This document shows, in pieces, positions 46,111 through 61,925 of a stretch of 64,000 nt of DNA (its first letter is position 1; every line of letters begins with the position of its first letter). Source of the stretch: Spirochaeta thermophila DSM 6578. Its GTDB lineage: Bacteria; Spirochaetota; Spirochaetia; Winmispirales; Winmispiraceae. Position numbers and translations under genes: made by a program. Below the pieces are notes generated by a model. That model worked only from the letters and a program-made list of their open reading frames with translations, had not been told where the DNA came from and made no database searches. Location: the NCBI RefSeq assembly GCF_000184345.1, contig NC_017583.1:124001-188000 (forward strand), in the 5' to 3' direction.

Positions 46111-46796
46111 GTTATATCTCCTTTCTGTGAGGGGTTGCCCGCCGTAAGGAGGGCAGAGAGCACGCGCATCTCTGCGCGGAGCGATATGGTACGCACCCAT
46201 ACCCCTTCGGAGGGGGGAAGGGGGCGGGAGGTGAAGTTGATAAGGCCGCGTATCCCCCCTGCCTTGAGGCGTTCTACCGTGGTCTCCACGGCCTCAGGAG
46301 GCACGGCAAGGATGCCCACCTCTATCTCCTCCCGCATGACCACCTCTGGAATCCTGAAGGCAGGGTAGAGAGGGATGCGGGTTGAGATGAGTTCAAGCCG
46401 GTTGGTGTTGCTGTCAAACCCTGCCACCACCTCATACTCCGGGAAGGACTCTTCGCTGTAGTGGAGGAGAGCGGTCCCAAGTCGCCCGAGCCCCACGATA
46501 CACGCCCGTCTCTTACTCGTGAGCCCTAATGCGCGAGAGAGAAGGGCAAGGAGGCCCTCCACCGCATATCCTCTGTGACCTTCGCCGGGCCCCTCGTGGC
46601 TATTCCCGTATTTAAGGAGAAGGCTTATATCCTTGCGCACAAGGTGAGCCGGGTAGCCCAGAAGCCTGCCGAGCTCTCGTGATGAGAGGCGAGCTACGCC
46701 CGATGTGGCTGCACTCTCCAGCACACTGTAGAGAGCCGAGAGCCGTTCCAGCGTGGGGAGGGGGAGGGATGGTGGAGTATTTGTGATTTTTTTCAC
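46107..46796 (-). CDS. rex: Redox-sensing transcriptional repressor Rex
   Basis: NADH/NAD+-responsive repressor, 229 residues, GTG start. N-terminal winged helix (LERLSALYSVLESA; LVRKDISLLLKYGNSHEGPGEGHRGY) and Rossmann domain with IVGLGRLGTALLHYSEE and AGFDSN, then the C-terminal swap helix. Slightly longer than the common 210 residues and with GLGRLG in place of GVGNLG. No ribosome site; the mRNA is probably leaderless. A Rex-type operator covers the start codon, implying autoregulation and redox control of serC-serA. Confidence 0.9.
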   Translation of the reverse strand: MKKITNTPPSLPLPTLERLSALYSVLESAATSGVARLSSRELGRLLGYPAHLVRKDISLLLKYGNSHEGPGEGHRGYAVEGLLALLSRALGLTSKRRACIVGLGRLGTALLHYSEESFPEYEVVAGFDSNTNRLELISTRIPLYPAFRIPEVVMREEIEVGILAVPPEAVETTVERLKAGGIRGLINFTSRPLPPSEGVWVRTISLRAEMRVLSALLTAGNPSQKGDIT

Positions 46797-46798
46797 AG
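46781..46798. promoter_or_regulatory. Putative Rex operator over the rex start codon
   Basis: TTGTGATTTTTTTCACAG compared with the Rex consensus TTGTGAAnnnnTTCACAA: 12 of the 14 specified positions match. It spans the predicted +1 (46797) and the GTG start codon (46796), a position that would block transcription initiation. Confidence 0.75.
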
Positions 46799-46833: not shown

Positions 46834-47087
46834 TGGGGATGAGAAGGGTATGAAATTTTCATGGAGAGCTATGCATTATGCATAGATTCATAAAGAAGAA
46901 AGGAACCCATGAAGCAGCGTGCTCATATCTGATGTTATGTTAAGTGAATGGAAGCGCACTTGATAGAGACATGGCATACTTTTTGAATTTTAATGAACCG
47001 GAGGAAAATAATATGAAAAACCTAGGAGTACATAAGTACAGGTCTCGTGACCGAAGAAATAGAGAGATTTTCCTTGTGGAGGGGGTT
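46834..47087. other. A+T-rich intergenic region before the giant lipoprotein gene
   Basis: This region holds the palindromic repeat (46863-46886). A possible seven-codon ORF starts at 46909 (MKQRAHI) with a GAAAGGA box. A weak promoter candidate TTGATA-17-TTGAAT lies near 46961-46990. A strong GGAGG site at 47000-47004 lies 8 nt before an in-frame ATG at 47013. Marked A+T richness contrasts with the genome average. No longer gene is seen. Confidence 0.5.
46863..46886. repeat. Left copy of a 24-bp palindromic direct repeat
   Basis: Core CTATGCATTATGCATAG (46869-46885), a perfect palindrome with 8-bp arms. It matches the copy at 61902-61925 at 20 of 24 positions in the same orientation. It lies 202 bp upstream of the giant lipoprotein ATG at 47088 and about 30 bp upstream of the rex -35. 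Confidence 0.85.
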
Positions 47088-50000
47088 ATGAAGCATATAA
47101 CAAAACTCACAGGATACGTGGTGGCGGTGATCACCCTCTTTATCGTAGTCCTTGGAGGGTGTGATGTGGGTCTGGGCGAACAGGTCGATGTGGCCCGTCC
47201 AAGAGTTGCGCTCACCAGCCATGAGTCGGGGGAGTACGTAAAAGGGGTGGTGACCCTATCGGGTACAGCCGAGGATGACACTGGGATCGAGGAGGTTCAG
47301 ATCTCCTTCGACAGAGGGGCCACCTTCAAGAAGGTGAGCAACCTCGTGAGCAAGGATGGGAAGATCGAGTGGAGTTATGCATGGGACACCACCAAGATCA
47401 CCGACGGCCGATACTATGTGGTGATCAAGGCCTTCGATTCCGGCGGCCACCAGTATCAGACCGAGGAGATTGTCTTCACTGTTGACAATCATCCTCCGGT
47501 CCTTCTCGTCTCTTCTCCTTCGAAGGTCGCGGATCCCACACAGAACCCCCACAACCAGCAGGCGATCCTGAGCGTCCATGCGGCGGACTATTCTCCCCTC
47601 GTCTCCTTCACGGTGGATGTGTGGGCGAGTGATAATCCGGAGGACGATCCCTCTACCTGGGAACATCTCTCCGGATTCCCACACACAGAGGCCCACACGG
47701 CCTCTCCGTGGAACTACACCTTTCAGTCGACTCCCTACACCCTGGACATAGGGAAGCCCCAGAGATCGTTCCATTTCGTCGTGTCCGCCGAGGACAAGGC
47801 AGGGAACATCTCGCAGACGTTCTACCATACTGATGACATATATCAGCTTGGGGGTATCACACTCACGGTGGAACAGGTACGCCAGATCCTGGAGGGGAGT
47901 CCTCCTGAAGGGATCTCGGTCACCCCTCAGGATCTTGGGGCTGTGGCCCTCTCGGCTGATGCGCCCTTCACCCTCTACTTCGACGAGGAAGAAGACAATC
48001 CGAAGATAACCTTTCTGGAGGGAGGAACCAAGTTTTTCACCTCGGAAGATATCACCATCGAGGTGGAAGACGACGATGCGGTGGACAAGGACTCGCTTGT
48101 CTTCACCCTCTCCAAATCCACGGATGGGGGACTCACCTATTCCCTCGAACCTGGATTCCCCCTCACCGGGTGGACGAACATCGTAGCTGATTCCCATATT
48201 TCCGTAAAGAAGAATGAGACCCGCCTCGTGCAGTTTGCCTTCGCCTGCACGGACCTCGAAGCGGGGAATTTTTACAAGATAGAGGTGGAGTCCAAGGATC
48301 CTTATGGTAACGATACTTCTGAGTTCAAGGAATTCGAGGTGATAACCAGCGACAATGAACCTCCCCAGATCACGGGTGTACAGATAGACGGAACCTCTCT
48401 TCCCTCGGGAGGCTTCCACGTGAGCAGTGGGTCCTACACTCTCTCCTTTACCGTTTCGGACAACGAGGAAGTCTCTACGGTGGAAGTACTTGAGAACGGC
48501 ACCTCGATCTTCCAGCAGGCCGTGAACAAGATCTCCGAGAGTTTCAGTGTTCCGGTTTCGGGGAATCCGGATGGATCGTATACGTACGAGATCATCGCAC
48601 GGGATGTGGGGGATCTCTCCACCAACGTGGTGCGCCAGGTGATAGTCGACAGCGTGGCTCCCCAGATCGAGTTTTCCATCGTGCCGCCGGTCACCAGCCC
48701 GGCCCCGGCATTCAACGGGGTGGTGAACCTCTCTGGCCTCATCTCCGACGACAATCCTGTGGATCTCCTCTACTACTACATCGGCCCGGACGACACCGAT
48801 CCTGCTGGTAGTGTCACCGTCCAGCGTGATGCGAACGGAAGGGCCATAGGAGTCTCCGGCCTCCCCGCCGGATGGCAGTCGTATGGGGGACCGAGCAACA
48901 ACGCCTGGACTCTGGAGTACGATACCACGGTCCTCTCGGATGGTACGTATTATATAGGTCTCTTGGCGGCCGACAGGAACGGGAATCTCGCAAGTTCGTT
49001 CTACACCATGGTAGTGGATCAATCCAGCGATGTGCCGGTCGTCACGGTCTCCAGCCCCAGCGACGGAGGATTTGCCGGTGCAGGCCATGTGGTGAGCGGC
49101 ACGGTGGCCGATGACGATGGTGTGGACACCACGAGCATCGAGCTGCGCTATTCGACCGACGGCGGGAGCACATGGAGCGGGTGGACGCCTGTCTCGGTGA
49201 CCGGCACGGGGAAGAACGTGTCGTTCACGTACACGCTTCCCGATCTCGGAGCGGATGGGCTCAAGCAGATAGAGATGCGGGCGAGCGACGATCCTTCGAA
49301 GAAACTGGGGAGCGCTCCCGCGGCAATAACCACTACCGAAGGGCCGGTCTCGTTCACCTACGATGCCACCGGTCCGGATGTCGACATCACCACACCCGCG
49401 ATGAATGAAGCGTTTGTGAGTAGTTTCACCGCGACAGGCACGGTGCTGGAGGAGAACTTGCAGACGTTGAGACTCAAGATCGACACCGGTTCGTGGCAAA
49501 CGCTCACACCGAGCGGTACTGCGCCCAACTACTCGTGGACCTATGATGTGGATACTACACTCTTTGATTCACTCTCCCAGGGGCCGCATTCCCTCACAGT
49601 GGAGGCTGTGGACAAGGTGGGCCAGACGGATGCCGTCCAGGTCACGTTCTACAAGGATAGTGCAGGTCCGGGTATCGTGTTCACCAGCATCCAGGAGGGT
49701 GTCAACACCATCCTCACCTCCACCAGTCCGGTGGTGGCGGGGAGTATCTCGGATGACTACTCGAACATAGCTTCCCAGATAGAGTATCGTATCGACGGGG
49801 CCGATCCCGATCCATGGCAGCAGGCCGGTGTGAGCGGGTCGGGTAAGACGGTGAGCTTCAGCATCGATGTGAGCAGCCTCTCCGATGGCCAGCACGATCT
49901 CGATATAAGGGCAACCGATGCCCTCGGGAACCAGACCGAGATAGTGGACGTACAGTTCAGGATAGATCGTGCCGCTCCCTCCCTCTCCATTACAGGTCCT

Positions 50001-53000
50001 GCGGAGGGAACGGTGTACGGTACTGTCCCCTCTGGAGTGGTCTTCACGCTCACCGGCACAGCGTCCGATGCCCTCCTCGATACCGTGACAGCCGATCTCG
50101 AGGGTACGCCTCTGAGCAACGGAGGATCCGCGACGACCTGGTCCTTCGATGTGGATAAGACAGTCTTTGATGCCCTTACTGAAGGAGCGCACACCATACA
50201 GGTGACCGCTATGGATCTGGCAGGAAGAAGTACACTCATTTCCTGGCAGTTCATCAAAGATGGTCAGCCGCCTGTCATCTCGTTCAGCAACATCAACGAG
50301 GATGGGAGCACGGTGCTCCAGGACGCCTCGCCTGTGATAAATGGTGTTGTCTCCGATATGTATGGTGTGGGGACAGTAGAGACAAGGATAGAGCAGTATA
50401 ACTACAGCACCTCCTCCTGGGAGCCTGTAGAGGACTGGATGGGTGTGGGTAACCCGGCTGGAGCCACGGTGTACGTGTGGAGCAAGGATCTCGGCCCCTC
50501 AGGTCTCAATCTGGGGGCAGGGAGGTATCGAATCTCGGTGCGGGCCACCGATACAGCTCAGAATACTCCGAACCAGGGAGAAAAGCTCCATATAGAGTTT
50601 GCAATAGACCAGCAGGCACCTGATCTTACGATAGACCCCATAGCTATGTATCAAAATGGTGACTTCACGCTCACAGGGACAGCCTCTGATGATGGGGCGA
50701 TAGCGAGCGTGAAGATAAAGGTGGACGATACCGACTTCTCCACCGGTGCCGTGGATGCGACCTATGATAGTGGAACCGGAACCTGGTCTGTCTCTGTGCC
50801 CACCGGTGGGCTTCTCTCAGGCGACCACACAGTGTATGTGCAGGCGAAAGACAGTGCGGGTAAGACGGTGATGCTCAACAAGCCGTTTGTCTTCGACAAT
50901 GAGGACCCGGGGGTAAGTATCCTCGAACCCACTCACCAGACCCGGGTGAATGGAGAAGTTACCATCCGTGGAACCACCTCTGACAATGTGGCAGTTGCAA
51001 CCGTTGAGTACAGATTTGGTAAGAACGCCACTACCTGGCAGACGAGCGGCCTTAGTGGTCTCTACAGCTGGAGCTACACCTTTACGCAGATCGAGTCTTA
51101 TGCAAACGATACGTACGCTACAGAGATAGATCCTGCGACGGGTCTGCCTCAGGCGGGAACTAATGTGTGGGCCCTCCCCTTCCAGGTGAGGGTCACCGAC
51201 GTGGCGGGGAATGTCTATGAGGAGCTCTCCTACGAGCTCTGGATCGATCCGGACATGGATACCCCGCTGGTCTACATCACGAGCCACACGAACAACCAGA
51301 CCGTGGGCGGCACGGTGCGGCTCGCAGGGTATGCCACCGACGACGACTGGGTCTACGATGTGGAGTATCGTGTGGATCCCACGGGCACGGGCTCCGGCTA
51401 TGGCTCGTGGGCCAGTGCGAACAGGATAGGTGCGGGCACCCAGGTCAACTGGTATGTGAACCTCAATGAGGACGGATCCCTCAATCCGCCTCCGGGCGAG
51501 ATCAACGAGGTCCTGGTACAGGTGAGGGCAGTAGACAGCAAAGACAATGGGCTTAGTCGCGGCATAGAAGGGGATGTGGCGAGCATCCGACTCAGGTTCG
51601 ACAGCAACGTCCCGGTGATAGAGGACGTGGAGGTCTTCAAGGCCGACGGCACGAAGGTACCGTACACCGCAGGCGAGCGTGTGGCAGGGACCTTCACCGT
51701 CGAGGCGGTGATGAGGGATGAGGGCGGTCTCTCCGAGATCGAGTGGCGGGGTGAGGGGACTACGCTCTTCACCGATGTACTCTCCGATCCCACGGTGGTG
51801 ACCACCCCGCCCGAGGTGGGTGCCTCCGAGATACGGGCCGGGGTGAAGTACCTCATCACCTCGGTGGGTACCACCGATTTCACGGCCATAGGGGCGAGCT
51901 CCAACGACGTGGGTATCACGTTCACCGCCACAGGGCCCGGAACCGGTACCGGCACGGCCTACATGGCCGTCACCCCGCCGCTCGTACCCGCAGCAGAGCT
52001 GGTCTCCGGTGAGGCTTACGCCATCTTCGATCCCGGCACCACCGACTGGACGGCGGTGGGTGCGCCCGACAACAGCGTAGGGACGCCGTTCGTGGCGACC
52101 GGTGCCGGCACGGGCGACGGCATCGCCTTCCGGATCGTGGCTGCTACGGAGCTCGTGGCAGACGAGGCCTACCGTATCTATGAGCCCGGTACCACCGACT
52201 GGACCGCAGTGGGGGCACCCGACAACAACGCAGGCACCACCTTCACGGCCACAGGTGCTGGTACCGGAGATGGGTTTGCCATAGAGCCTGAGAAGCTGAG
52301 CTTTGTGTACCGGTTCCACCTCCAGCTCGACTCCACCACCCTCAACGGCGGTGCCTATGCCGCCACGAGCGGGTTCTACCAGCTCGACCTCAGGGTGACC
52401 GACAACGCCTCGCCCACGCCCTACATGAGCCAGCAGAGCCTCAACCTGCAGATCGACAACTACTATCCGTCGGGCGAATATCTGGCCTCTCCCAATGCTG
52501 CCACAGCCGAGTACTACATTCAGGGTCGTGGCTGGGATAGCGGTACCGGGTCGGGACCCATCCAGGGGATCGGTGAGGTGGTAGTCTACTTCGAGCGTGA
52601 GGGCTCATTCATCGACCTCGCAGGAGGGGCTGGTTCCTGGACAACCCGATACGTCAAGGATGAGGCCGCAGGAGGGACCTACCAGGACGTGACCTTCCCG
52701 GCCGATACGGCGAGCGGTATCTGGGTGGATACGAACGAGATCGGGGTCGATATCGACGGTGACGGATACGTGGAAGGGTTCTCCACCGATGGAATCTACA
52801 AGAACTGGTATGCCATCTATGATACCACAGTGCTCGCGGATGGACCTGTGACCCTCCACTACGTGATCATCGATGCAGCAGGCAACGCCACCCACTATAC
52901 CCAGGATCTCTACATCCAGAACAACATTCCCCAGATCGACAACGTAGTGATAGGAACCGACCTTGACAACAGTAGCACGATCGATCCTGGCGAGACTAAG

Positions 53001-55634
53001 CTCTACAACACCAACTATGAAACTACCAACTTCACGGTCCGGAACCACTACCTCCAGTTCCAGATCAACGCCTCCTCAGGTAACGGCCAGCTCTACTACC
53101 GCGTGGGCTACGTGACGGGAACGACGAGTGTGCCGGCCTCGAGCCTCGTGAGGGGTGGTGTGTACACCATAGAGACCGTAGGCGATACGGACTGGACCAG
53201 GATCGGTGCCCTGGCCAACCAGGCGGGCATCACATTCGTGGCCACAGGACCTGGCACAGGGTCTGGTACGGCCATCTCGTACACTACCACTGAGCTCAAC
53301 GCCACCCTCACCAGCAACGTGGTGGATCTCACCGACTTCTCGAGCATCCCGGATTCAGCGGTTGCGAACGACCGCCGGTTCATCATCAAGGTGTACGATT
53401 CTACCGTGCCGGCGGGTGGTGAGGAGGAGCAGCTTGCTGCTGCCGTGCTGGTAGGGCTCACGGTGGACAACACCGATGAGGCGGTACCTGAACTTGCAGT
53501 CGCTGATATGGGACAGACATACTCCGTGGCTGAGGCGTATGTCGACAGAGTTCTCCAACCTGTGAGCTCATACGAAGACAATATCGTCACCTCTGGGGAT
53601 GGCACACGACAGGGATACGTGCAGTACGCAGCTGCGAGTAGTGACGCCGATGCCGACGTGAGCGGAAAGGTGATCTTCTTTGGTAAGGCATACGACAACC
53701 AGAACCTGCAGCGCATCCAGGTGCAGATTACAGGCTATGACGGTGGAACCGGCATCGGGCAGCCCTTCGAGATCGCCGTGGCCTCTGGTGGCACCCTCGT
53801 CTCAGCCAACAGCGCCACGATCGCCGATGTGGAGGCAGGGAATGCTGACTGGGCCTTCGAGGTGGTCTCCGGCAGTGAGTCCCTCACTGTGGACAACGGG
53901 CATGTGATCAACTGGAAGTTCGCATGGAACACCGCAACCGTGCAGAACGTGGCCCAAGACAACGTGACGTTGACCTTCACCGTGGAGGATACCTCAGGCA
54001 ATACAGGAACCCCTGTGAGCTATACGGTGGATGTACGGCCCTACATCACCGATGTGCAGCGCGATCCCGCGAACTTCAACACCTACCGGTCGAAGTACGG
54101 ATGGTACTCCCTGCGGAGGGGTGAGACTGTCCAGATCACGGGCTTCAACCTCTACAGCTCCCCATCCGATACCATAAGCTTTGGTGGAGCGGCTGTGAAT
54201 CTCCCATCCAGCGCTACGACCACCTCGTTCTCCCTGACTGTGCCGGCTACCGCGGTCTCCGGCGCCATCACCCTCATGGTGAATGGTCTTGAGGCCCTCA
54301 ACAACATCAACGACAACACGGAGACCTACAACCAGGAGTACGATACTGCTGAGCCGCGTTCGACCCTCTGGACAGATGATCGCTACGCCCACATCTGGCA
54401 GTCCAACGACACCACCGGTACCCTCGATGCAGGGTACTTCCCCGGGAGCGACAACCCTGTGCATCCTGCCATGACCGTAGATCCCTCAACCGGAAGGCTG
54501 TATGCGAGCTGGTCCCACTATGCCACCTCGCAGGTCTATCGAGCGGCGATAGATGATGCTGGAAGGACCACGGTGTTCCGGATTTACGATCCCTCAGAGC
54601 ATACCGATATCGATTACGGCGTCCGACCGGTCATCGCCTACAACGCGAACTATTACAATGGTGCTACTACCTATGGCGGTCTCTATGTCTGGGATCCACA
54701 AGCCCCGTATCAGTTCAGTTCAGCGGGAGTGGACAACTACTTCTATCAGGGTGAGAATATGGGGCACGACCAGTATCTCATGCAGTTCATCAATGAGCGC
54801 GTGGTCACGGTGGGGGATAACATCCACGTGAGCTACTACGATACCGAGACCAAGGCTCTCAAGTATATGTACATCCAGAGCGGCGATACCAGTACTGCGG
54901 AACACTCCTGGGTAAATCTCGACGGAGGCTCTGATGGGGATGATATCCAGGTGGTCTCTACCGGTCGGGTCTCTGCAGCAGGTGAGTTCAGCGCCATCGA
55001 CGTGACCCCGTTGGGCTACCCGGTAATCGCCTACTACGATATCTCCCGGCAGACCGTGCGGATCGCCCGAGCAACGAGCACCACGCCCACTACTGCAGCC
55101 GATTGGGTACTCCAGGACGTGATCAGCACCTCTGATCCCAACTACCGGTACTCTGGCAAGTACATCTCCATGCGGATCGACAGTCAAGGCTATGTCCACC
55201 TTGCCTTCTTCAGGGTGAGCACAGGTGATCTCATCTACATGAAGTCCACCAACAACCCGCAGGACGGGAGCACAGACTACACGTTCGGTCCCACTGTGGT
55301 GGTCGACAACGAAGGCTCGGTAGGTATCTGGGCCGACATCTCCCTCACCGACGACGACAGGCCGGTGATCACCTACCTCGACTTCTCGCTGGTCAACACC
55401 TTTGATGGCCTCAAGATGGCCTTCTACGATCCTGCGCTCGAACGTGAGGACGGAGATGTGGCAGGAGAACCCGACACCTCTGACGGATGGGAGACCATGT
55501 ACGCAGCCCTTGGGTATGACATCGACAACAAGCGGCTGAGCATCGAGTACGATACGGGCGGCCACAACGGATGGTGGGCTGCAATAGGGTACGCTTCGAG
55601 CGACTACTATCGAGTGGCCTACTACGTAAAGTAA
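47088..55634 (+). CDS. Giant Ig-like repeat surface lipoprotein (2848 residues)
   Basis: Signal peptide MKHITKLTGYVVAVITLF with Cys25 in the lipobox VVLGGC. Most of the protein is tandem Ig-like (Big_7-like) modules of about 90-110 residues with the pattern V.GTA.DD.G...V.....G....W.Y..DTT...DG.Y.....A.D..GN. Four copies of a phage-tail-like 45-residue repeat interrupt it (three at about residues 1580-1731, one near 2015-2065). An IPT/TIG-like domain lies at about 2314-2415, and the last 420 residues look like a beta-propeller (ASWSHYATSQVYRAAIDD; GNIHVSYYDTETKALKYMYI-type strands). Expected on the cell surface as an adhesin or structural protein. GGAGGGGG box before 47088; an in-frame ATG at 47013 with a good box is an alternative. 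A strong terminator follows. Confidence 0.88.
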   Translation: MKHITKLTGYVVAVITLFIVVLGGCDVGLGEQVDVARPRVALTSHESGEYVKGVVTLSGTAEDDTGIEEVQISFDRGATFKKVSNLVSKDGKIEWSYAWDTTKITDGRYYVVIKAFDSGGHQYQTEEIVFTVDNHPPVLLVSSPSKVADPTQNPHNQQAILSVHAADYSPLVSFTVDVWASDNPEDDPSTWEHLSGFPHTEAHTASPWNYTFQSTPYTLDIGKPQRSFHFVVSAEDKAGNISQTFYHTDDIYQLGGITLTVEQVRQILEGSPPEGISVTPQDLGAVALSADAPFTLYFDEEEDNPKITFLEGGTKFFTSEDITIEVEDDDAVDKDSLVFTLSKSTDGGLTYSLEPGFPLTGWTNIVADSHISVKKNETRLVQFAFACTDLEAGNFYKIEVESKDPYGNDTSEFKEFEVITSDNEPPQITGVQIDGTSLPSGGFHVSSGSYTLSFTVSDNEEVSTVEVLENGTSIFQQAVNKISESFSVPVSGNPDGSYTYEIIARDVGDLSTNVVRQVIVDSVAPQIEFSIVPPVTSPAPAFNGVVNLSGLISDDNPVDLLYYYIGPDDTDPAGSVTVQRDANGRAIGVSGLPAGWQSYGGPSNNAWTLEYDTTVLSDGTYYIGLLAADRNGNLASSFYTMVVDQSSDVPVVTVSSPSDGGFAGAGHVVSGTVADDDGVDTTSIELRYSTDGGSTWSGWTPVSVTGTGKNVSFTYTLPDLGADGLKQIEMRASDDPSKKLGSAPAAITTTEGPVSFTYDATGPDVDITTPAMNEAFVSSFTATGTVLEENLQTLRLKIDTGSWQTLTPSGTAPNYSWTYDVDTTLFDSLSQGPHSLTVEAVDKVGQTDAVQVTFYKDSAGPGIVFTSIQEGVNTILTSTSPVVAGSISDDYSNIASQIEYRIDGADPDPWQQAGVSGSGKTVSFSIDVSSLSDGQHDLDIRATDALGNQTEIVDVQFRIDRAAPSLSITGPAEGTVYGTVPSGVVFTLTGTASDALLDTVTADLEGTPLSNGGSATTWSFDVDKTVFDALTEGAHTIQVTAMDLAGRSTLISWQFIKDGQPPVISFSNINEDGSTVLQDASPVINGVVSDMYGVGTVETRIEQYNYSTSSWEPVEDWMGVGNPAGATVYVWSKDLGPSGLNLGAGRYRISVRATDTAQNTPNQGEKLHIEFAIDQQAPDLTIDPIAMYQNGDFTLTGTASDDGAIASVKIKVDDTDFSTGAVDATYDSGTGTWSVSVPTGGLLSGDHTVYVQAKDSAGKTVMLNKPFVFDNEDPGVSILEPTHQTRVNGEVTIRGTTSDNVAVATVEYRFGKNATTWQTSGLSGLYSWSYTFTQIESYANDTYATEIDPATGLPQAGTNVWALPFQVRVTDVAGNVYEELSYELWIDPDMDTPLVYITSHTNNQTVGGTVRLAGYATDDDWVYDVEYRVDPTGTGSGYGSWASANRIGAGTQVNWYVNLNEDGSLNPPPGEINEVLVQVRAVDSKDNGLSRGIEGDVASIRLRFDSNVPVIEDVEVFKADGTKVPYTAGERVAGTFTVEAVMRDEGGLSEIEWRGEGTTLFTDVLSDPTVVTTPPEVGASEIRAGVKYLITSVGTTDFTAIGASSNDVGITFTATGPGTGTGTAYMAVTPPLVPAAELVSGEAYAIFDPGTTDWTAVGAPDNSVGTPFVATGAGTGDGIAFRIVAATELVADEAYRIYEPGTTDWTAVGAPDNNAGTTFTATGAGTGDGFAIEPEKLSFVYRFHLQLDSTTLNGGAYAATSGFYQLDLRVTDNASPTPYMSQQSLNLQIDNYYPSGEYLASPNAATAEYYIQGRGWDSGTGSGPIQGIGEVVVYFEREGSFIDLAGGAGSWTTRYVKDEAAGGTYQDVTFPADTASGIWVDTNEIGVDIDGDGYVEGFSTDGIYKNWYAIYDTTVLADGPVTLHYVIIDAAGNATHYTQDLYIQNNIPQIDNVVIGTDLDNSSTIDPGETKLYNTNYETTNFTVRNHYLQFQINASSGNGQLYYRVGYVTGTTSVPASSLVRGGVYTIETVGDTDWTRIGALANQAGITFVATGPGTGSGTAISYTTTELNATLTSNVVDLTDFSSIPDSAVANDRRFIIKVYDSTVPAGGEEEQLAAAVLVGLTVDNTDEAVPELAVADMGQTYSVAEAYVDRVLQPVSSYEDNIVTSGDGTRQGYVQYAAASSDADADVSGKVIFFGKAYDNQNLQRIQVQITGYDGGTGIGQPFEIAVASGGTLVSANSATIADVEAGNADWAFEVVSGSESLTVDNGHVINWKFAWNTATVQNVAQDNVTLTFTVEDTSGNTGTPVSYTVDVRPYITDVQRDPANFNTYRSKYGWYSLRRGETVQITGFNLYSSPSDTISFGGAAVNLPSSATTTSFSLTVPATAVSGAITLMVNGLEALNNINDNTETYNQEYDTAEPRSTLWTDDRYAHIWQSNDTTGTLDAGYFPGSDNPVHPAMTVDPSTGRLYASWSHYATSQVYRAAIDDAGRTTVFRIYDPSEHTDIDYGVRPVIAYNANYYNGATTYGGLYVWDPQAPYQFSSAGVDNYFYQGENMGHDQYLMQFINERVVTVGDNIHVSYYDTETKALKYMYIQSGDTSTAEHSWVNLDGGSDGDDIQVVSTGRVSAAGEFSAIDVTPLGYPVIAYYDISRQTVRIARATSTTPTTAADWVLQDVISTSDPNYRYSGKYISMRIDSQGYVHLAFFRVSTGDLIYMKSTNNPQDGSTDYTFGPTVVVDNEGSVGIWADISLTDDDRPVITYLDFSLVNTFDGLKMAFYDPALEREDGDVAGEPDTSDGWETMYAALGYDIDNKRLSIEYDTGGHNGWWAAIGYASSDYYRVAYYVK
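51829..52280 (+). repeat. Three tandem phage-tail-like 45-residue repeats in the giant lipoprotein
   Basis: Each unit follows G..Y.I...GTTD[FW]TA[IV]GA..N..G..F.ATG.GTG.G.A; units begin near 51829, 51994 and 52147. The same pattern is common, to my knowledge, in tail-fibre and structural proteins of tailed phages. Confidence 0.85.
53131..53281 (+). repeat. Fourth copy of the phage-tail-like repeat
   Basis: SLVRGGVYTIETVGDTDWT, then IGALANQAGITFVATGPGTG. Same unit as at 51829-52280, separated by about 850 nt of other sequence. Confidence 0.85.
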
Positions 55635-55651
55635 GGGTGTTACGCAGAGGT

Positions 55652-55683
55652 AAGGGGCTGCCTTCCGGCAGCCCCTTCTTTTT
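55652..55683 (+). terminator. Intrinsic terminator of the giant lipoprotein gene
   Basis: 11-bp perfect stem AAGGGGCTGCC/GGCAGCCCCTT, TTCC loop, then CTTTTT. Begins 17 nt after the stop codon. Confidence 0.93.
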
Positions 55684-55714
55684 GTCTTCATCGACTCCCT
55701 GGAAGAAGGCGGTC

Positions 55715-56710
55715 TTAGTGTAGGCCTTCCACCACCAGCCTTGTACTCGCATCCCATGCGGCCTTTGCCCGCCACGCGAGGGGGTTGGGCGCCTCTGCTC
55801 CCCGTACCGTCGGCACCAGCCCTGTCCTCATCGCAAGGGCCTCCTGCACCTCCCGCTCCCCTGCCCACGCACGCCCCTGCGCCACCGCTCCCCTATTCCT
55901 CCAGCCCACAGGCACAGCCCACAGGACCCGCACGGGAAGCTCGTACTCGGCCACCTCAGCCGGATCGGGGAACCGGTCTGCCTCGAGAAGCCCCACCTTC
56001 CCCGGTCCCAGTCTCACCGCCTCTGCGAGCGGCGCGTACACCCACAGCCCCTGCTCCGCAAAAAACCGCGCCCACACATCCTCCCACACCGCAGTCTCCG
56101 ACCCCCTTGCCCACACCCCCGCATCCAGCCACGTCCTCACGCTCTCCTCCCCCCCCACGCCAAACCGTGCCCCCTGCACCCCTGCGCTCCACCTGCCCCG
56201 CGGCGTCCCCCCCGCCACCAGCACCCGGCCTCGGCCTGCGGCTAGATCCCCGCGCGTCAGCCTCTCCTGCCTTGCGCGCCGGAACACCATCCACACATCC
56301 ACCACCAGTGGCACACTCCCTGCCGGTACCGCCCCATCCCTCACGAGCCTCACATACCCCTCGGGAAACCCCGTATCCTCGCTCTCCCCCCATTCGAACG
56401 CATGGGCCTTCCCTTCGGGAACCCCCCACGTGATGAGGACCCCCGGCGCCCTGCACGCCTCATAGCTGCCGGGAAACACCTCCACCCGCCGGAAGGGAGC
56501 ATCCTCCCTCTCTTCCAGGAACGCGCGCCACAGCTCATCGGTCTCCGGGGTCACATACCACCGTGGAGCATAGTACGTCACGTACCACCACAGCCCACCC
56601 GCAAGCACAATTGCCACCAGGACCCCTCCCAGCACCATCCACACCCATGGGGGAAAGAACGACCTCACTTCCCTGTCAGTCCTCTGTCTTTGTTTGCTTC
56701 TCCTGTTCAT
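55715..56710 (-). CDS. Single-pass membrane protein of unknown function
   Basis: 331 residues from ATG 56710 (MNRRSKQRQRTDREV) with an AGGAG box. A basic N-terminus, one TM helix (about 24-46) and an extracytoplasmic domain of about 285 residues: VLITWGVPEGKAHAFEWGES, PLVVDVWMVFRRARQERLTRGD, ADRFPDPAEVAEYELPVRVLW. The pattern (an object taken up, deposit of a value, a list of allowed outputs) recalls extracytoplasmic binding folds, but no family is recognised. It lies between the two giant genes, downstream of giant B. Confidence 0.7.
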   Translation of the reverse strand: MNRRSKQRQRTDREVRSFFPPWVWMVLGGVLVAIVLAGGLWWYVTYYAPRWYVTPETDELWRAFLEEREDAPFRRVEVFPGSYEACRAPGVLITWGVPEGKAHAFEWGESEDTGFPEGYVRLVRDGAVPAGSVPLVVDVWMVFRRARQERLTRGDLAAGRGRVLVAGGTPRGRWSAGVQGARFGVGGEESVRTWLDAGVWARGSETAVWEDVWARFFAEQGLWVYAPLAEAVRLGPGKVGLLEADRFPDPAEVAEYELPVRVLWAVPVGWRNRGAVAQGRAWAGEREVQEALAMRTGLVPTVRGAEAPNPLAWRAKAAWDASTRLVVEGLH

Positions 56711-56788
56711 ACCCACTCCTGCAACGGTATATCCTGGGAACCGTATCACATGAGGTATTCTCCTCTTCACATTGTAGTACCACCCTAC

Positions 56789-56819
56789 GAAAAAGGCGAG
56801 CTCCCTCAGGAAGCCCGCC
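56789..56819 (-). terminator. Intrinsic terminator of the barrel-ended Ig-like protein
   Basis: Minus strand: 11-bp stem with two G-U pairs, TGA loop, then five T residues, 25 nt after the stop at 56844. Some read-through into the 331-residue gene is possible. Confidence 0.85.
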
Positions 56820-56843
56820 TCTCACCTCTTTCGGCGCACCGGT

Positions 56844-59800
56844 CTAGAACATCACCACATGGGTGCCGAAGGTGAGCTTGGGCACGATCTTCGGATCCAC
56901 GTCCGAGGGGATGAACCAGAGTTCCGGCTCCACGTAGAGGCTGTAGGTGTGGAAGGCCGGGAAGCGCTTCACCTCCACGATCGGGAACTCCAGCTGGGCG
57001 AGGATGGCGCTCAAGACCACGGAGGAGATCGTCCTGGTCCCTTGGGCCTCCTCCACCTCGATGGGATCGTAGAGGAGGATGTAGCTGAAATCCGCTCCGA
57101 GGGCCAGCTTCAACGAGAGCCAGTCCCAGTCGGGCCCCAGGAACGACTCGAACGGCACGGAGAGGAGGCTCGCGAGGAGCTTGCCGCTTATGAACTGGCC
57201 CGAGAGGCGGGCCGGCTTGCCCTCGGCGGTGGTCCGCGGGCCGAGACCATAGCTCACCTGGAGCTTCACGTTGTTGTCGAAGAAGGTGAGGCCAAGGCCC
57301 GCCTTCCAGTAGGTCATGCCGAGGAAATGGGCGTCGAGGTACATCCCCTGGATGAACTCGGGTATCTCGTACCCGGCCTTGTCTCCGGCCCTGAGGCTTA
57401 TCTGCACGTCCTTAAGCCCGAAGTTGTCGTCCGCAATACCAAACGCCACGAGCTTCTCGTTGACCCTGTCGCCCTCGAGCGGGGCTATCACCTTCACCTC
57501 GGGCGGGATCTTGTCCACCACGAAGAGGGTGCGCAGGACGGCGGTCTCACCGTTCCGGAAGGAGGCCTGCACCAGGACAGGGAGCGGACCATTGGGGAGG
57601 AAGCCCGTCTCCACGCGGTACTCCCACTCCTCTCGGGCCGGAATCTCCTCGAACGTCCTCCCGTTGTCGAGACTCACCTGTATGCGCACCACTTCGAACT
57701 CCCGTATCTTCTTCCTGTAGTCCGGATCTTCGGGATCGAGCGTGGTGAGGTAGGCAGCGGTCCCTCTGATCCAGGGCCTGTTGGTGAGCATATCGCCTAT
57801 CATGTGGCTCTCGAGGGTGAGGTAGGGCCCTGTCTTCTGGTAGATGAAGCTCCGCGGCTCGCTCTCCACCCGCGCCCCATCGTGGGAGAGCACGGCCTTC
57901 AGGGTGACCTCGCCGTCGGGGACCTTGCCGGGATCGAGGACTGCCCTGAAATATCCGCGGGGGTTCACGTCGGCCGAGGTGAGGAATCCGTCCTCGAGGA
58001 AGAGTTGCACCTTCTCCACCGGCGAGGGAGCCGTCGCCACACCTTCGACCACCACGGGCCCGTGGACGACCTCACCCTCGGAGGGGAAGAGGATGTGCAC
58101 CGAGGCGCCCTCGGTCCGTGCCACCACGAAGAGGTTCCTGTCCACGAGGGCCACATTGCCTGCCTTATCCCTGGCCTCGAGTCTCAGGTTGTACCACCCG
58201 GGCGAGAGCTCACCCAACGGTATGCGAGTGGTGAGCACCCTCTCGAGCGGGAGCGTCACCTCCACCGGTTCCAGCTGGTTGTTGATGGGCTCGAGGATCC
58301 CCTTGAAGGAGGTGAGCTGGATGTTGTCGGAGACACGGCCTGAGAGCCGGACCTCTCCCGAGACGGTGGCCCCTTCTTCCGGGGTGGTGATGGTGATCTC
58401 GGGAGGCGTGTTGTCCACGTTCACCAGCGCAGAGTACGAGGCCTCTATGCCATATCCATCGCGTACCACGAACTGCACCGCGTACGTACCGTCCGTGAAG
58501 ATGGTGGTATCGAGCGGGTAGGTCCACTCCGTACCTTCTATGGTGAGGTGGGCGAAGTGGAAGGAGTTCCCGTTGTCGAAGGAGACCCGTACCGAATCGA
58601 TCCCGTTCGCGTCACCCGCCGTTCCCCTGAGGATCACCGTTCCTCTTACGGTCTCCTCGACCGTGGGGGAGACCATGGCACCCTCCGGTTCGCTGAGACT
58701 CACCCTGAGTGTTTTCGAGGCGATCTCCCCCTGCAACCCGAACAGATCCACGGCGTAGATCTCCACGGTGTGTTCATTGTCGGAGAGGGAGGAGAGGGGA
58801 ATGGTGAAGGAGAAGGTGTGCTGCGCAGGCACCTCCTGCCAGGTGCCGTCGTCGAGCTTCCATACGATCTTGGAGATGCCGTCGTCGTCGAAGGCCATGC
58901 CCGCAATCGTGACGTCCTTGGTGACCACGAAGTCGTCGGGTGGTGTCTGGATCTCCACGTGGGGTTTGTCGAGCGAGAGGTCCACGGAGGGTGAGAGGAT
59001 GGTCTCCGAGGTGTTCCCTGCCGCATCTTCCGCAATGAGCTTCATGGTCTTTCCCTCCTCGGCGAGGTGGGAGAAGTCGACCGTGAACGAGAAGATCCCG
59101 TCTTCCGGAGAGAGGGGGGTGAAGGAGGGCTCCGGGGTACTGGCGGCTGCTTCCTCGGAGTCCCCCGATGAGGCAGAGGGTTCAGACGGTCCCTGTTCCA
59201 GGAGGTAGCCGAACCGCACCACCGGGGCCTCGGAGATGATGGAGCCTGCCACCAGGATGGTGCCGTTCACCGTCTTTCCCGCCTCGGGGGTGGTGAAGGC
59301 GAGGGTGGGCGGGGTGGCGTCGTAGAAGAGGTGGATGCGCCGGTGGGTCATGTGACCTGCGTCGTCCACTGCCTTTACCTCCAGGAGGTGTGGGCCGGGG
59401 GTGAGCTGGGACACGGCCATCGTGGTGGAAAACCGGGGTTCTGAGGCGGATACGCTCACCCAGGGGGCACCGTCGAGCCTGTAGGAGAGCCGGGGCAGAC
59501 CGGCGTCGTCCTGCACCTCTCCCTCGATGGTGAGCGACGTGTTGAGGTACGCCCCATCCGAGGGGGTACTAAGCGTGAGTACAGGGGCATCGAGATCGAT
59601 CTCGGCATTGAAGCGGGGTGAACGGTAGGTGCGGCCGTCGGTTGAGGTCACCACCACCTGAACGCCCGAGGCCTTTCCCGCCTTCTGAGGCGTGATGATG
59701 AGGTGGGTGTCCTCGTGTCTCACGCTGAGGAGATCGTCGGCCCCTTCGAGTACCACCTCTCGTATCCCTTTTCCCGAGAAGAAGCCTACGAGGGGGGTGC

Positions 59801-61709
59801 GATCCGTCCAGACCATGGTCCCATGGGAGAGGCGGTAGTCGAGGAGGAACACCTCATCGGGCTTGACAGGCGGGGGGAGACTCTCGCCTTCCTTCTTCGG
59901 CGGAGGTGCCTGATAGGAGATGACCTGGGGAAAGAGAGAGGTACGCCCGTCGCGCATGGTGAGCGCAAAGACCGCGGCGAGGGCCCCATGGCCTGCCTTG
60001 GGATCAAGAGAGGCCTCGAAGACATAGCCGCCTTCTTCGTCAGGACTGATCTTGAGACCCGTCTTTCTCACCGTGTTCGGGAACTGCGGGATGTTCTCGG
60101 GATCGAGGGGCATGAGGGCCCAGAGGTCGTCCCCTCCCACGTAGAGCACGCCGGAGGAGGGCTTCTCCTGGGCAGTGATCCTTCCCCGGAGGACGGCCTT
60201 GCGGGAGGCATCGTAGGTGAGGCCGTTCTTCCAGGTGAGGGATTCGCCCGTGTCGGTATAGAACAGCTCCTCGACCGTGAGGATCGGCGCGTTGGGGGCG
60301 ATCTGGAACGAGACCTTCACCGGAGGGCTCTCCAGACCGTAGACGTCCACCCCCATGAGGGTGAGGGTGTGTCGGCCCGGGGGAAGTCCCTCGAGGGGTA
60401 CGTAGAATCCCATGGAGGCGGGGATCTCAACCCCCTGTTTGGGATCGTCTCCCATACCGAGGACCCTTACCTTCTCAGGCGGGTTGGGTCCCACGATACG
60501 GCCCACGAGCACCTCATCCGAGGTGAGGAGCGGCTCACCCTCTTCCTGGGTGGGGAAGAGGATCTCCACCCGAGGCTGGAAGGCCTTTCTGTCGTTTTTG
60601 AGCCGGAGCTTCCGGGAAGAGAGGTTGCCGCTCGCATCCTCTGCATGCACGATGAGTTCGAGCGTGCCGTCCTTTTCCTGCGTGGTGTCGAGGGTGAGGT
60701 GCCAGTACGGGTTCCCTGGTATGATCTCGAGGTCGTGCTCTTCGCCCTTGAAGGTGTACCAGAGCCGTTTCACCCCTATGGCATCCCTCACCGTGCCAGT
60801 GATGCCCACCTTCCCGAAGACCACGGCCTCGTCTTCAGGGTTGAGTACGCTGAGTGTGGCCGGTTCGTTGTCCACGAAGAGGAGGAAGGGGGTGCGGACT
60901 TCTGTCCCGGTGCCGTCGGTGGCGGTGAACCACCACACATAGGGGCCGTCGGGGAAGGGCCTGGTATCGAGAGGAAGGGAAAATCGGTAGACTCCTTCGC
61001 CCTTGTCGTACTTGAGACCCATCGTGAGGGTTTTCTCCGGGATGTGCTCCTCCTCTCCCTTTTTGTTTACTGCGGTATAGGAGGGTATGGTGACGGTGAG
61101 TGCTTCCACGCCGGTCTCGTCCCTCACCACACCTTCGAGAGCCATCTTCCCCGAGACAAGGGCGCCACTCTGATGCGAGGTGAACTCGATCACCGGCGGA
61201 GCGGTGTCGAGCACGAATGTGGAGGTGATCTCCGGTCCCTCGGTGCCGTTCACGTCCACCGCCTTCACCGAGATGGTGTGGGTTCCCTCGGTGAGTCGTG
61301 AGGCGGGTACTGCGACCCGCCAGTACTCGGTTCCCTCGGCCGTCTGGTAGGAACCGTCGTCGAGCTTCACGAGGACCCGTGCCACGCCGTCGTCGTCGAC
61401 CGCCACGCCCACGATGTTGAAGGCATTACGCACCACCTCGTACTCCTGTGGGGAGACGATCCGCACCACCGGGAGGTCGGAGGCAGGATCCACCTTGATG
61501 TTGAACGGTCCGGCGATGGACTCGTTTCCTGCAAAATCGATGGCCTTTATGATCACGTTGTGGGTACCGGGTTTTGTCTCCTGGAGGTCGAACTCTTTTT
61601 TCCAGTCCTCCTTCCCCTCTGCTTCCTGCCACTCGGTGGTACCGCCAGCATAGAGCCAGACGGAGATGAGGAGAAGAAAGAGAAATGTCGTGAGGCTACG
61701 CAGCTTCAT
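56844..61709 (-). CDS. Ig-like repeat protein with C-terminal beta-barrel-like domain (1621 residues)
   Basis: Cleavable signal peptide MKLRSLTTFLFLLLISVWLYA, no lipobox. About a dozen Ig-like modules related to those of the giant lipoprotein follow (VVRIVSPQEYEVVRNAFNIVGVAVDDDGVA; VMAFDDDGI-type AFDDDGISKIVWKLDDGTW). The last 190-220 residues alternate polar and hydrophobic residues (YLDAHFLGMTYWKAGLGLTFF; WDWLSLKLALGADFSYILLY; SLYVEPELWFIP) and end in Phe, which suggests an outer-membrane beta-barrel or beta-sheet anchor. AAGGAGG box. A 218-nt leader region separates it from the LysM gene upstream. Expected at the outer membrane. Confidence 0.85.
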   Translation of the reverse strand: MKLRSLTTFLFLLLISVWLYAGGTTEWQEAEGKEDWKKEFDLQETKPGTHNVIIKAIDFAGNESIAGPFNIKVDPASDLPVVRIVSPQEYEVVRNAFNIVGVAVDDDGVARVLVKLDDGSYQTAEGTEYWRVAVPASRLTEGTHTISVKAVDVNGTEGPEITSTFVLDTAPPVIEFTSHQSGALVSGKMALEGVVRDETGVEALTVTIPSYTAVNKKGEEEHIPEKTLTMGLKYDKGEGVYRFSLPLDTRPFPDGPYVWWFTATDGTGTEVRTPFLLFVDNEPATLSVLNPEDEAVVFGKVGITGTVRDAIGVKRLWYTFKGEEHDLEIIPGNPYWHLTLDTTQEKDGTLELIVHAEDASGNLSSRKLRLKNDRKAFQPRVEILFPTQEEGEPLLTSDEVLVGRIVGPNPPEKVRVLGMGDDPKQGVEIPASMGFYVPLEGLPPGRHTLTLMGVDVYGLESPPVKVSFQIAPNAPILTVEELFYTDTGESLTWKNGLTYDASRKAVLRGRITAQEKPSSGVLYVGGDDLWALMPLDPENIPQFPNTVRKTGLKISPDEEGGYVFEASLDPKAGHGALAAVFALTMRDGRTSLFPQVISYQAPPPKKEGESLPPPVKPDEVFLLDYRLSHGTMVWTDRTPLVGFFSGKGIREVVLEGADDLLSVRHEDTHLIITPQKAGKASGVQVVVTSTDGRTYRSPRFNAEIDLDAPVLTLSTPSDGAYLNTSLTIEGEVQDDAGLPRLSYRLDGAPWVSVSASEPRFSTTMAVSQLTPGPHLLEVKAVDDAGHMTHRRIHLFYDATPPTLAFTTPEAGKTVNGTILVAGSIISEAPVVRFGYLLEQGPSEPSASSGDSEEAAASTPEPSFTPLSPEDGIFSFTVDFSHLAEEGKTMKLIAEDAAGNTSETILSPSVDLSLDKPHVEIQTPPDDFVVTKDVTIAGMAFDDDGISKIVWKLDDGTWQEVPAQHTFSFTIPLSSLSDNEHTVEIYAVDLFGLQGEIASKTLRVSLSEPEGAMVSPTVEETVRGTVILRGTAGDANGIDSVRVSFDNGNSFHFAHLTIEGTEWTYPLDTTIFTDGTYAVQFVVRDGYGIEASYSALVNVDNTPPEITITTPEEGATVSGEVRLSGRVSDNIQLTSFKGILEPINNQLEPVEVTLPLERVLTTRIPLGELSPGWYNLRLEARDKAGNVALVDRNLFVVARTEGASVHILFPSEGEVVHGPVVVEGVATAPSPVEKVQLFLEDGFLTSADVNPRGYFRAVLDPGKVPDGEVTLKAVLSHDGARVESEPRSFIYQKTGPYLTLESHMIGDMLTNRPWIRGTAAYLTTLDPEDPDYRKKIREFEVVRIQVSLDNGRTFEEIPAREEWEYRVETGFLPNGPLPVLVQASFRNGETAVLRTLFVVDKIPPEVKVIAPLEGDRVNEKLVAFGIADDNFGLKDVQISLRAGDKAGYEIPEFIQGMYLDAHFLGMTYWKAGLGLTFFDNNVKLQVSYGLGPRTTAEGKPARLSGQFISGKLLASLLSVPFESFLGPDWDWLSLKLALGADFSYILLYDPIEVEEAQGTRTISSVVLSAILAQLEFPIVEVKRFPAFHTYSLYVEPELWFIPSDVDPKIVPKLTFGTHVVMF

Positions 61710-61901
61710 ATATGGCCCTCCTTAAGATGGGGATAAGTGTTCCATGCCCTTCTGACTCACAGTGTTCAAAGCAAATAACATACCAAAATAACGTCTTGCT
61801 TCATATGCTTCCAGGCATTTTTGATGAGGATATCTCTCAGTCATACAGGAAAATACATTCTCACCGTAGGAGAGGGTGAGGAGTGCCTCATCTCTTTGGG
61901 A

Positions 61902-61925
61902 GGAGCACTATGCACCATGCATAGA
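61902..61925. repeat. Right copy of the 24-bp palindromic direct repeat
   Basis: Core CTATGCACCATGCATAG (61908-61924), arms CTATGCA/TGCATAG. It starts 3-4 nt beyond the LysM gene stop codon and 198 bp upstream of the giant B start at 61709, mirroring the left copy. Confidence 0.85.

Follow-up and report, generated by a model that had tools for sequence, protein, structure and literature searches.

Palindromes upstream of two giant surface-protein genes of Spirochaeta thermophila are probable enhancers of a sigma-54-dependent activator

Verified UAS of the Escherichia coli activator AtoC, such as GCTATGCAGAAATTTGCACA, lie upstream of the sigma-54 promoter of atoDAEB (PMC3118216), and NtrC-type sigma-54 regulons have been reconstructed in Clostridiales and in Desulfovibrio (PMC6615313, PMC4641369). 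Sigma-54 has also been proposed to have a general connection with the cell exterior (PMC3162934). Here we analyzed a 64,000-nucleotide stretch of the Spirochaeta thermophila DSM 6578 genome (NC_017583.1, positions 124,001 to 188,000; this whole stretch is called the window), in which two genes for giant Ig-like proteins, giant A and giant B, are each preceded by a palindrome. Our comparison with related genomes indicates that the palindrome is very probably the UAS (enhancer) of one sigma-54-dependent activator of the REC-AAA+-Fis-type HTH kind, which would switch on giants A and B, an MCP, and a lipoprotein together.

The palindrome CTATGCA-N3-TGCATAG has two exact copies in the window, one in the gap between rex and giant A and one beginning 3 nt beyond the stop of the LysM gene (Table 1). 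The preliminary description had reported these as the only copies in the window, with 20 of 24 bases matching when flanks are included, the right copy just past the LysM stop, and distances of 202 and 198 bp to the starts of giant A (47088) and giant B (61709), respectively; pattern search and recomputation (46863–46886 versus 61902–61925) returned the same coordinates and values. It had also proposed a whole-genome scan, and across all 2,560,222 bases the exact palindrome has these two copies, 202 and 198 bp upstream of the giants, and a reversed control pattern has none. A motif scan reveals a weak second palindrome, P1, located 21 bp centre-to-centre from the exact copy at giant A, P2; the spacing is also 21 bp in a second species of the same genus (G001), where P1 reads CTATGAAAATGTCATAG. 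P1 and the two sigma-54-type promoters of Table 1 had been missed in the preliminary description.

Table 1. Features of the giant A–giant B block (window coordinates)
Feature	Coordinates	Strand	Basis
Weak second UAS (P1) of giant A, GTATGAAATTTTCATGG	46848..46864	.	Motif scan; 21 bp centre-to-centre from P2
UAS (P2) of giant A, CTATGCATTATGCATAG	46869..46885	.	Exact match; counterparts align in G001 and G002
Sigma-54 promoter of giant A, TGGCATACTTTTTGAAT, atypical TTGA at −12	46972..46988	+	Match to TGGYAYRNNNNTTGMWT
Giant A, 2848-aa Ig-like surface protein, lipoprotein signal peptide	47088..55634	+	Translation; Big_7, Big_13, Big_3_3 domains
331/351-aa membrane protein gene	55715..56770	-	Directly downstream of giant B, same strand; same neighbor in G001 and G002
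Giant B, 1621-aa Ig-like protein, C-terminal 8-stranded outer-membrane barrel	56844..61709	-	Domain search, structure prediction, Foldseek
Sigma-54 promoter of giant B, TGGTATGTTATTTGCTT	61769..61785	-	Match to TGGYAYRNNNNTTGMWT; conserved in G001 and G002
UAS of giant B, CTATGCACCATGCATAG	61908..61924	.	Exact match; G001 CTATGCGAAATGCATAG on +, G002 TTATGCATAATGCATTG, same position

The giant A gene has an alternative in-frame ATG at 47013, and the start at 47088 encodes the lipoprotein signal peptide. The predicted structure of the giant B barrel has OprF, NspA, and OmpA as its best Foldseek matches, and this OmpA/OprF-like C-terminus (56847–57350, minus strand) is kept in at least 17 other spirochaete genomes. 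The membrane protein gene likely shares an operon with giant B. In several other families of the class (G028, G032, G035, and G053 are examples), genes resembling giant A are found close to genes resembling giant B, an indication that the two form a conserved surface pair. A perfect Rex-type operator, TTGTGATTTTTTTCACA (46781–46797), stands where the rex gene begins; G001 and G002 (the latter from another genus of the family) have comparable sequences, and Rex probably regulates its own gene through this box. The palindrome was itself considered as a Rex operator and was rejected: Rex has its own conserved box, unlike the palindrome.

The sigma-54 pattern TGGYAYRNNNNTTGMWT has seven matches in the genome, among them the promoters of giant A and giant B; its reversed control has none. 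The giant B, MCP, and lipoprotein promoters each have the −24 GG/−12 GC element with ~10-bp spacing, and the giant A promoter is atypical, having TTGA in place of TTGC at −12 both here and in G001. Alignment of the three giant A upstream regions places a near-perfect counterpart, TGGCACGGTTATTGCAT, with TTGCA at −12, at the same position in G002, and TGGCACGCTTATTGAAT in G001; the giant B promoter has counterparts at the same position in G001 (TGGTATGTTATTTGC, the same as here) and in G002 (TGGCATGCTTATTGCAT). By coordinates, the palindromes are separated from the promoters by 86 and 107 bp at giant A and by 122 bp at giant B, within the range of UAS (~70–200 bp upstream); the corresponding class loci span 60–189 bp. 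A sigma-54 promoter 86–122 bp downstream is the anatomy of an enhancer, and we therefore read the palindromes as candidate UAS of a sigma-54 activator. The genome has one rpoN gene. Sigma-54 promoters having no palindrome within reach also exist and were checked as negatives; one of these is a perfect promoter (L107:6483–6525) upstream of a gltB-like gene, probably under a different, nitrogen-related activator.

Allowing up to two mismatches, the genome contains four palindromes: the exact pair and two further sites. Because the control pattern also gives four at this threshold, the two further sites are assigned by context and conservation, not by their letters. One of them, together with two neighbors having three mismatches, lies between a dCache MCP gene and a lipoprotein gene divergent from it; both genes have a strong sigma-54 promoter, and the three palindromes are letter-identical in G001. 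The lipoprotein itself has 217 aa here (L102:9215–9868) and 295 aa in G001, a repeat expansion in its linker. The other site, TTATGCATTTTGCATAA, lies just upstream of a gene for a REC-Sigma54_activat-HTH_8 activator, as its counterparts do in G001 and G002. Specifically, it is positioned between a sigma-70-like promoter, read by eye (TTGCTT-17-TATGAT here and in G001; TTGAAA-17-TATTAT in G002), and the start codon. Since the palindrome directly follows this promoter, autorepression of the activator is suggested. Transposase-like reading frames occur directly upstream of the activator gene (~2374.5–2377.3 kb; L101:6554–9260), and the equivalent stretch of G001 looks different.

The candidate activator gene (2,377,364–2,378,785 of the genome) is far from the giant block. 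Its product combines REC, Sigma54_activat with a GAFTGA-type loop, and HTH_8, the composition of an NtrC-type activator. By count of strong matches, the genome encodes ~10 clear sigma-54 activators; among those whose recognition helices were read out, the candidate is the only one with the helix QSTLSRR (end, GNQSAAAQILGISQSTLSRRLKK). The palindrome-adjacent activators of distant spirochaetes have the same helix, with GNQSxAAxxLGxxQSTLSRR common to all, and in a tree the palindrome-linked activators form one branch with 100/100 support, apart from the eight other activators of the genome that the tree includes. No partner kinase gene adjoins the candidate activator gene in S. thermophila. In one large spirochaete genome (G140), the activator gene and a gene for a 7TMR-DISM histidine kinase overlap, and the kinase is a possible partner.

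Across the Spirochaetia, the palindrome and the activator occur together. An ortholog, defined as a match to the recognition-helix profile at E ≤ 1e-18, is present in 66 of 390 genomes: 18 of the 20 having an exact palindrome versus 48 of the 370 others (Fisher 2e-13), and, leaving out the genomes from which the profile was built, 9 of 11 exact-palindrome genomes (7e-7). Palindromes with at most one mismatch number 66 in 55 ortholog-bearing genomes, versus 15 for the control pattern, and 11 in 55 genomes without an ortholog, versus 18 for the control; one of those 11, in G109, adjoins an ortholog falling just short of the E cut-off. The palindrome lies within ~300 bp after the end of the activator gene in at least 15 genomes that did not contribute to the profile. 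In genomes with the ortholog, 30 of 39 palindrome loci have a strong sigma-54 promoter 40–230 bp downstream, on one side, versus 0 of 6,575 random positions taken from these loci and 0 of 11 ortholog-negative loci; the remaining 9 of the 39 have no recognizable sigma-54 promoter. Distances between palindrome and promoter recur near 77 and 162 bp. Among 84,980 genomes, a palindrome with a sigma-54 promoter 70–100 bp away was found in 7 contigs, all of Spirochaetes/Spirochaetaceae/Spirochaetales. Sequence comparison thus shows that the sites and the sigma-54 promoters exist and are conserved, and that they co-occur with, and are physically linked to, a single activator family.

The predicted targets in S. 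thermophila are giant A, giant B, the MCP, and the lipoprotein; elsewhere in the class, lipoproteins bearing domains of surface type (Listeria-Bacteroides repeats, laminin-G) take their place. Downstream of the promoter that follows the activator gene, many lineages encode a CheY-like protein whose conserved N-terminus contains DFP. This arrangement of activator gene, UAS, sigma-54 promoter, and CheY-like gene (MK[STA]K[SGT]DFP...) recurs as a conserved module at eight of the loci inspected, sometimes with ABC-transporter genes next. G140 and G207, both large genomes, have 11 palindromes each (exact in G140, with at most one mismatch in G207), often paired 18–20 bp apart, together with several related activators, and their predicted regulon is much expanded. 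Near the giant A and giant B homologs of other families (L032–L047), no palindrome with at most one mismatch was found, except in G048, where a site separates the giant B homolog from a divergent MCP gene and has no clear sigma-54 promoter; that this is the only such site indicates that regulon content shifts between lineages. The target lists suggest that surface proteins are coupled to chemotaxis. The broader proposal, that one activator family runs a "surface and taxis" regulon across many Spirochaetia lineages, in which giant Ig-like proteins and lipoproteins would be coupled to chemotaxis (through the MCP in S. thermophila and the CheY-like protein in many others) and the activator would repress its own gene, we consider evenly balanced between being right and being wrong.

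The preliminary description had offered two readings of the repeat: operators of one regulator co-controlling both surface proteins, or, alternatively, scars marking the ends of a surface-protein cassette that had inserted there (an attachment site or a duplicated target), to be sought as an empty rex/LysM junction in relatives. A direct repeat matching at 20 of 24 bases does flank a 15-kb block, and the genome has no other exact copy. However, G001 and G002 share this gene order (rex, giant A, membrane gene, giant B, LysM), and in both relatives the block has palindromes at the two homologous places: one between rex and giant A, the other directly beyond the LysM stop, upstream of giant B. 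The letters of the A-side and B-side palindromes have diverged separately among the three genomes, as binding sites would be expected to do. In addition, no integrase or transposase lies between the two copies, such sites are also present at unrelated loci alongside sigma-54 promoters or the activator gene, and A/B-like pairs are present in other families of the class. The locus thus shows none of the marks of a mobile-element boundary (a repeat made by insertion, an empty site in relatives, an internal integrase or transposase), and we regard insertion scars as very improbable. Co-control of the two giants is strongly supported by the comparisons, and is refined here to predicted UAS of a sigma-54 activator.

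Two further explanations concern what recognizes the palindrome. Its size is typical of the sites of many dimeric regulators, so that a different regulator, an ordinary repressor or another activator, could be imagined, with the sigma-54 promoters and the activator linkage incidental; dozens of genomes, however, show the sites accompanied by and physically linked to one activator family, with sigma-54 promoters at recurring distances, which makes this unlikely, if less so than insertion scars. Alternatively, the palindromes might act as RNA hairpins (terminators, attenuators, or processing sites): the arms can pair, 3 nt separate the LysM stop from the right copy, and the weak giant A site stays symmetric in G001 despite changed letters. 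The stem, though, is short, A/T-rich, and lacks a T run; at giant A, transcription from the sigma-54 promoter is predicted to start downstream of the site; the symmetric site serves promoters on either strand; and the same letters, not merely the same pairing, are kept across many loci. An RNA hairpin accordingly seems scarcely credible to us.

If the palindromes are UAS of the sigma-54 activator, the following sequence of events can be envisaged, in which site binding, promoter activation, receiver phosphorylation, autorepression, and an environmental signal are all inferred. The receiver domain would be switched on, presumably by phosphorylation, and activator dimers on the palindromes would oligomerize, with looping of the DNA between. 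ATP would then be spent to open the sigma-54 RNA polymerase waiting at −24/−12 promoters ~90–120 bp downstream, resulting in co-expression of giant A, giant B with its downstream membrane gene, the chemotaxis receptor, and the lipoprotein. By binding the palindrome just past the sigma-70 promoter of its own gene, the activator would probably limit its own synthesis.

For this proposed spirochaete regulon, the comparison yields a predicted binding motif, one candidate regulator, and a handful of targets, two giant surface proteins among them, and the motif is specific enough for target prediction in dozens of genomes. In the open-access literature searched, we found no earlier description of the motif, of the regulon, or of sigma-54 enhancers in free-living spirochaetes; in particular, the main texts of the Clostridiales and Desulfovibrio studies (PMC6615313, PMC4641369) contain neither the CTATGCA-N3-TGCATAG motif nor spirochaetes. 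Those regulons resemble the present one in having Fis-type HTH activators and palindromic, often multiple UAS, mostly 100–250 bp upstream of −24/−12 promoters, and in Desulfovibrio many sigma-54 targets are likewise of the cell exterior (PMC4641369). AtoC is likewise a REC-AAA-HTH_8 activator, and its sites share the half-site CTATGCA with the S. thermophila palindrome (PMC3118216). AtoC (NF008469) is also the best NCBIfam match of the candidate activator, at 335.6 bits, far below the membership cut-off of 714. The two differ in the spacer between half-sites, which is 6 in AtoC (CTATGCA-N6-TGCACA, a 20-bp site) versus 3 here, and in their targets. The Borrelia Rrp2-RpoN-RpoS pathway is similar in that a spirochaete sigma-54 response-regulator activator leads to expression of surface lipoproteins; there, sigma-54 acts through RpoS, whereas here the surface genes themselves bear predicted sigma-54 promoters and enhancer sites. 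The architecture is thus of a known kind, and the regulator, the motif, and the targets appear to be new.
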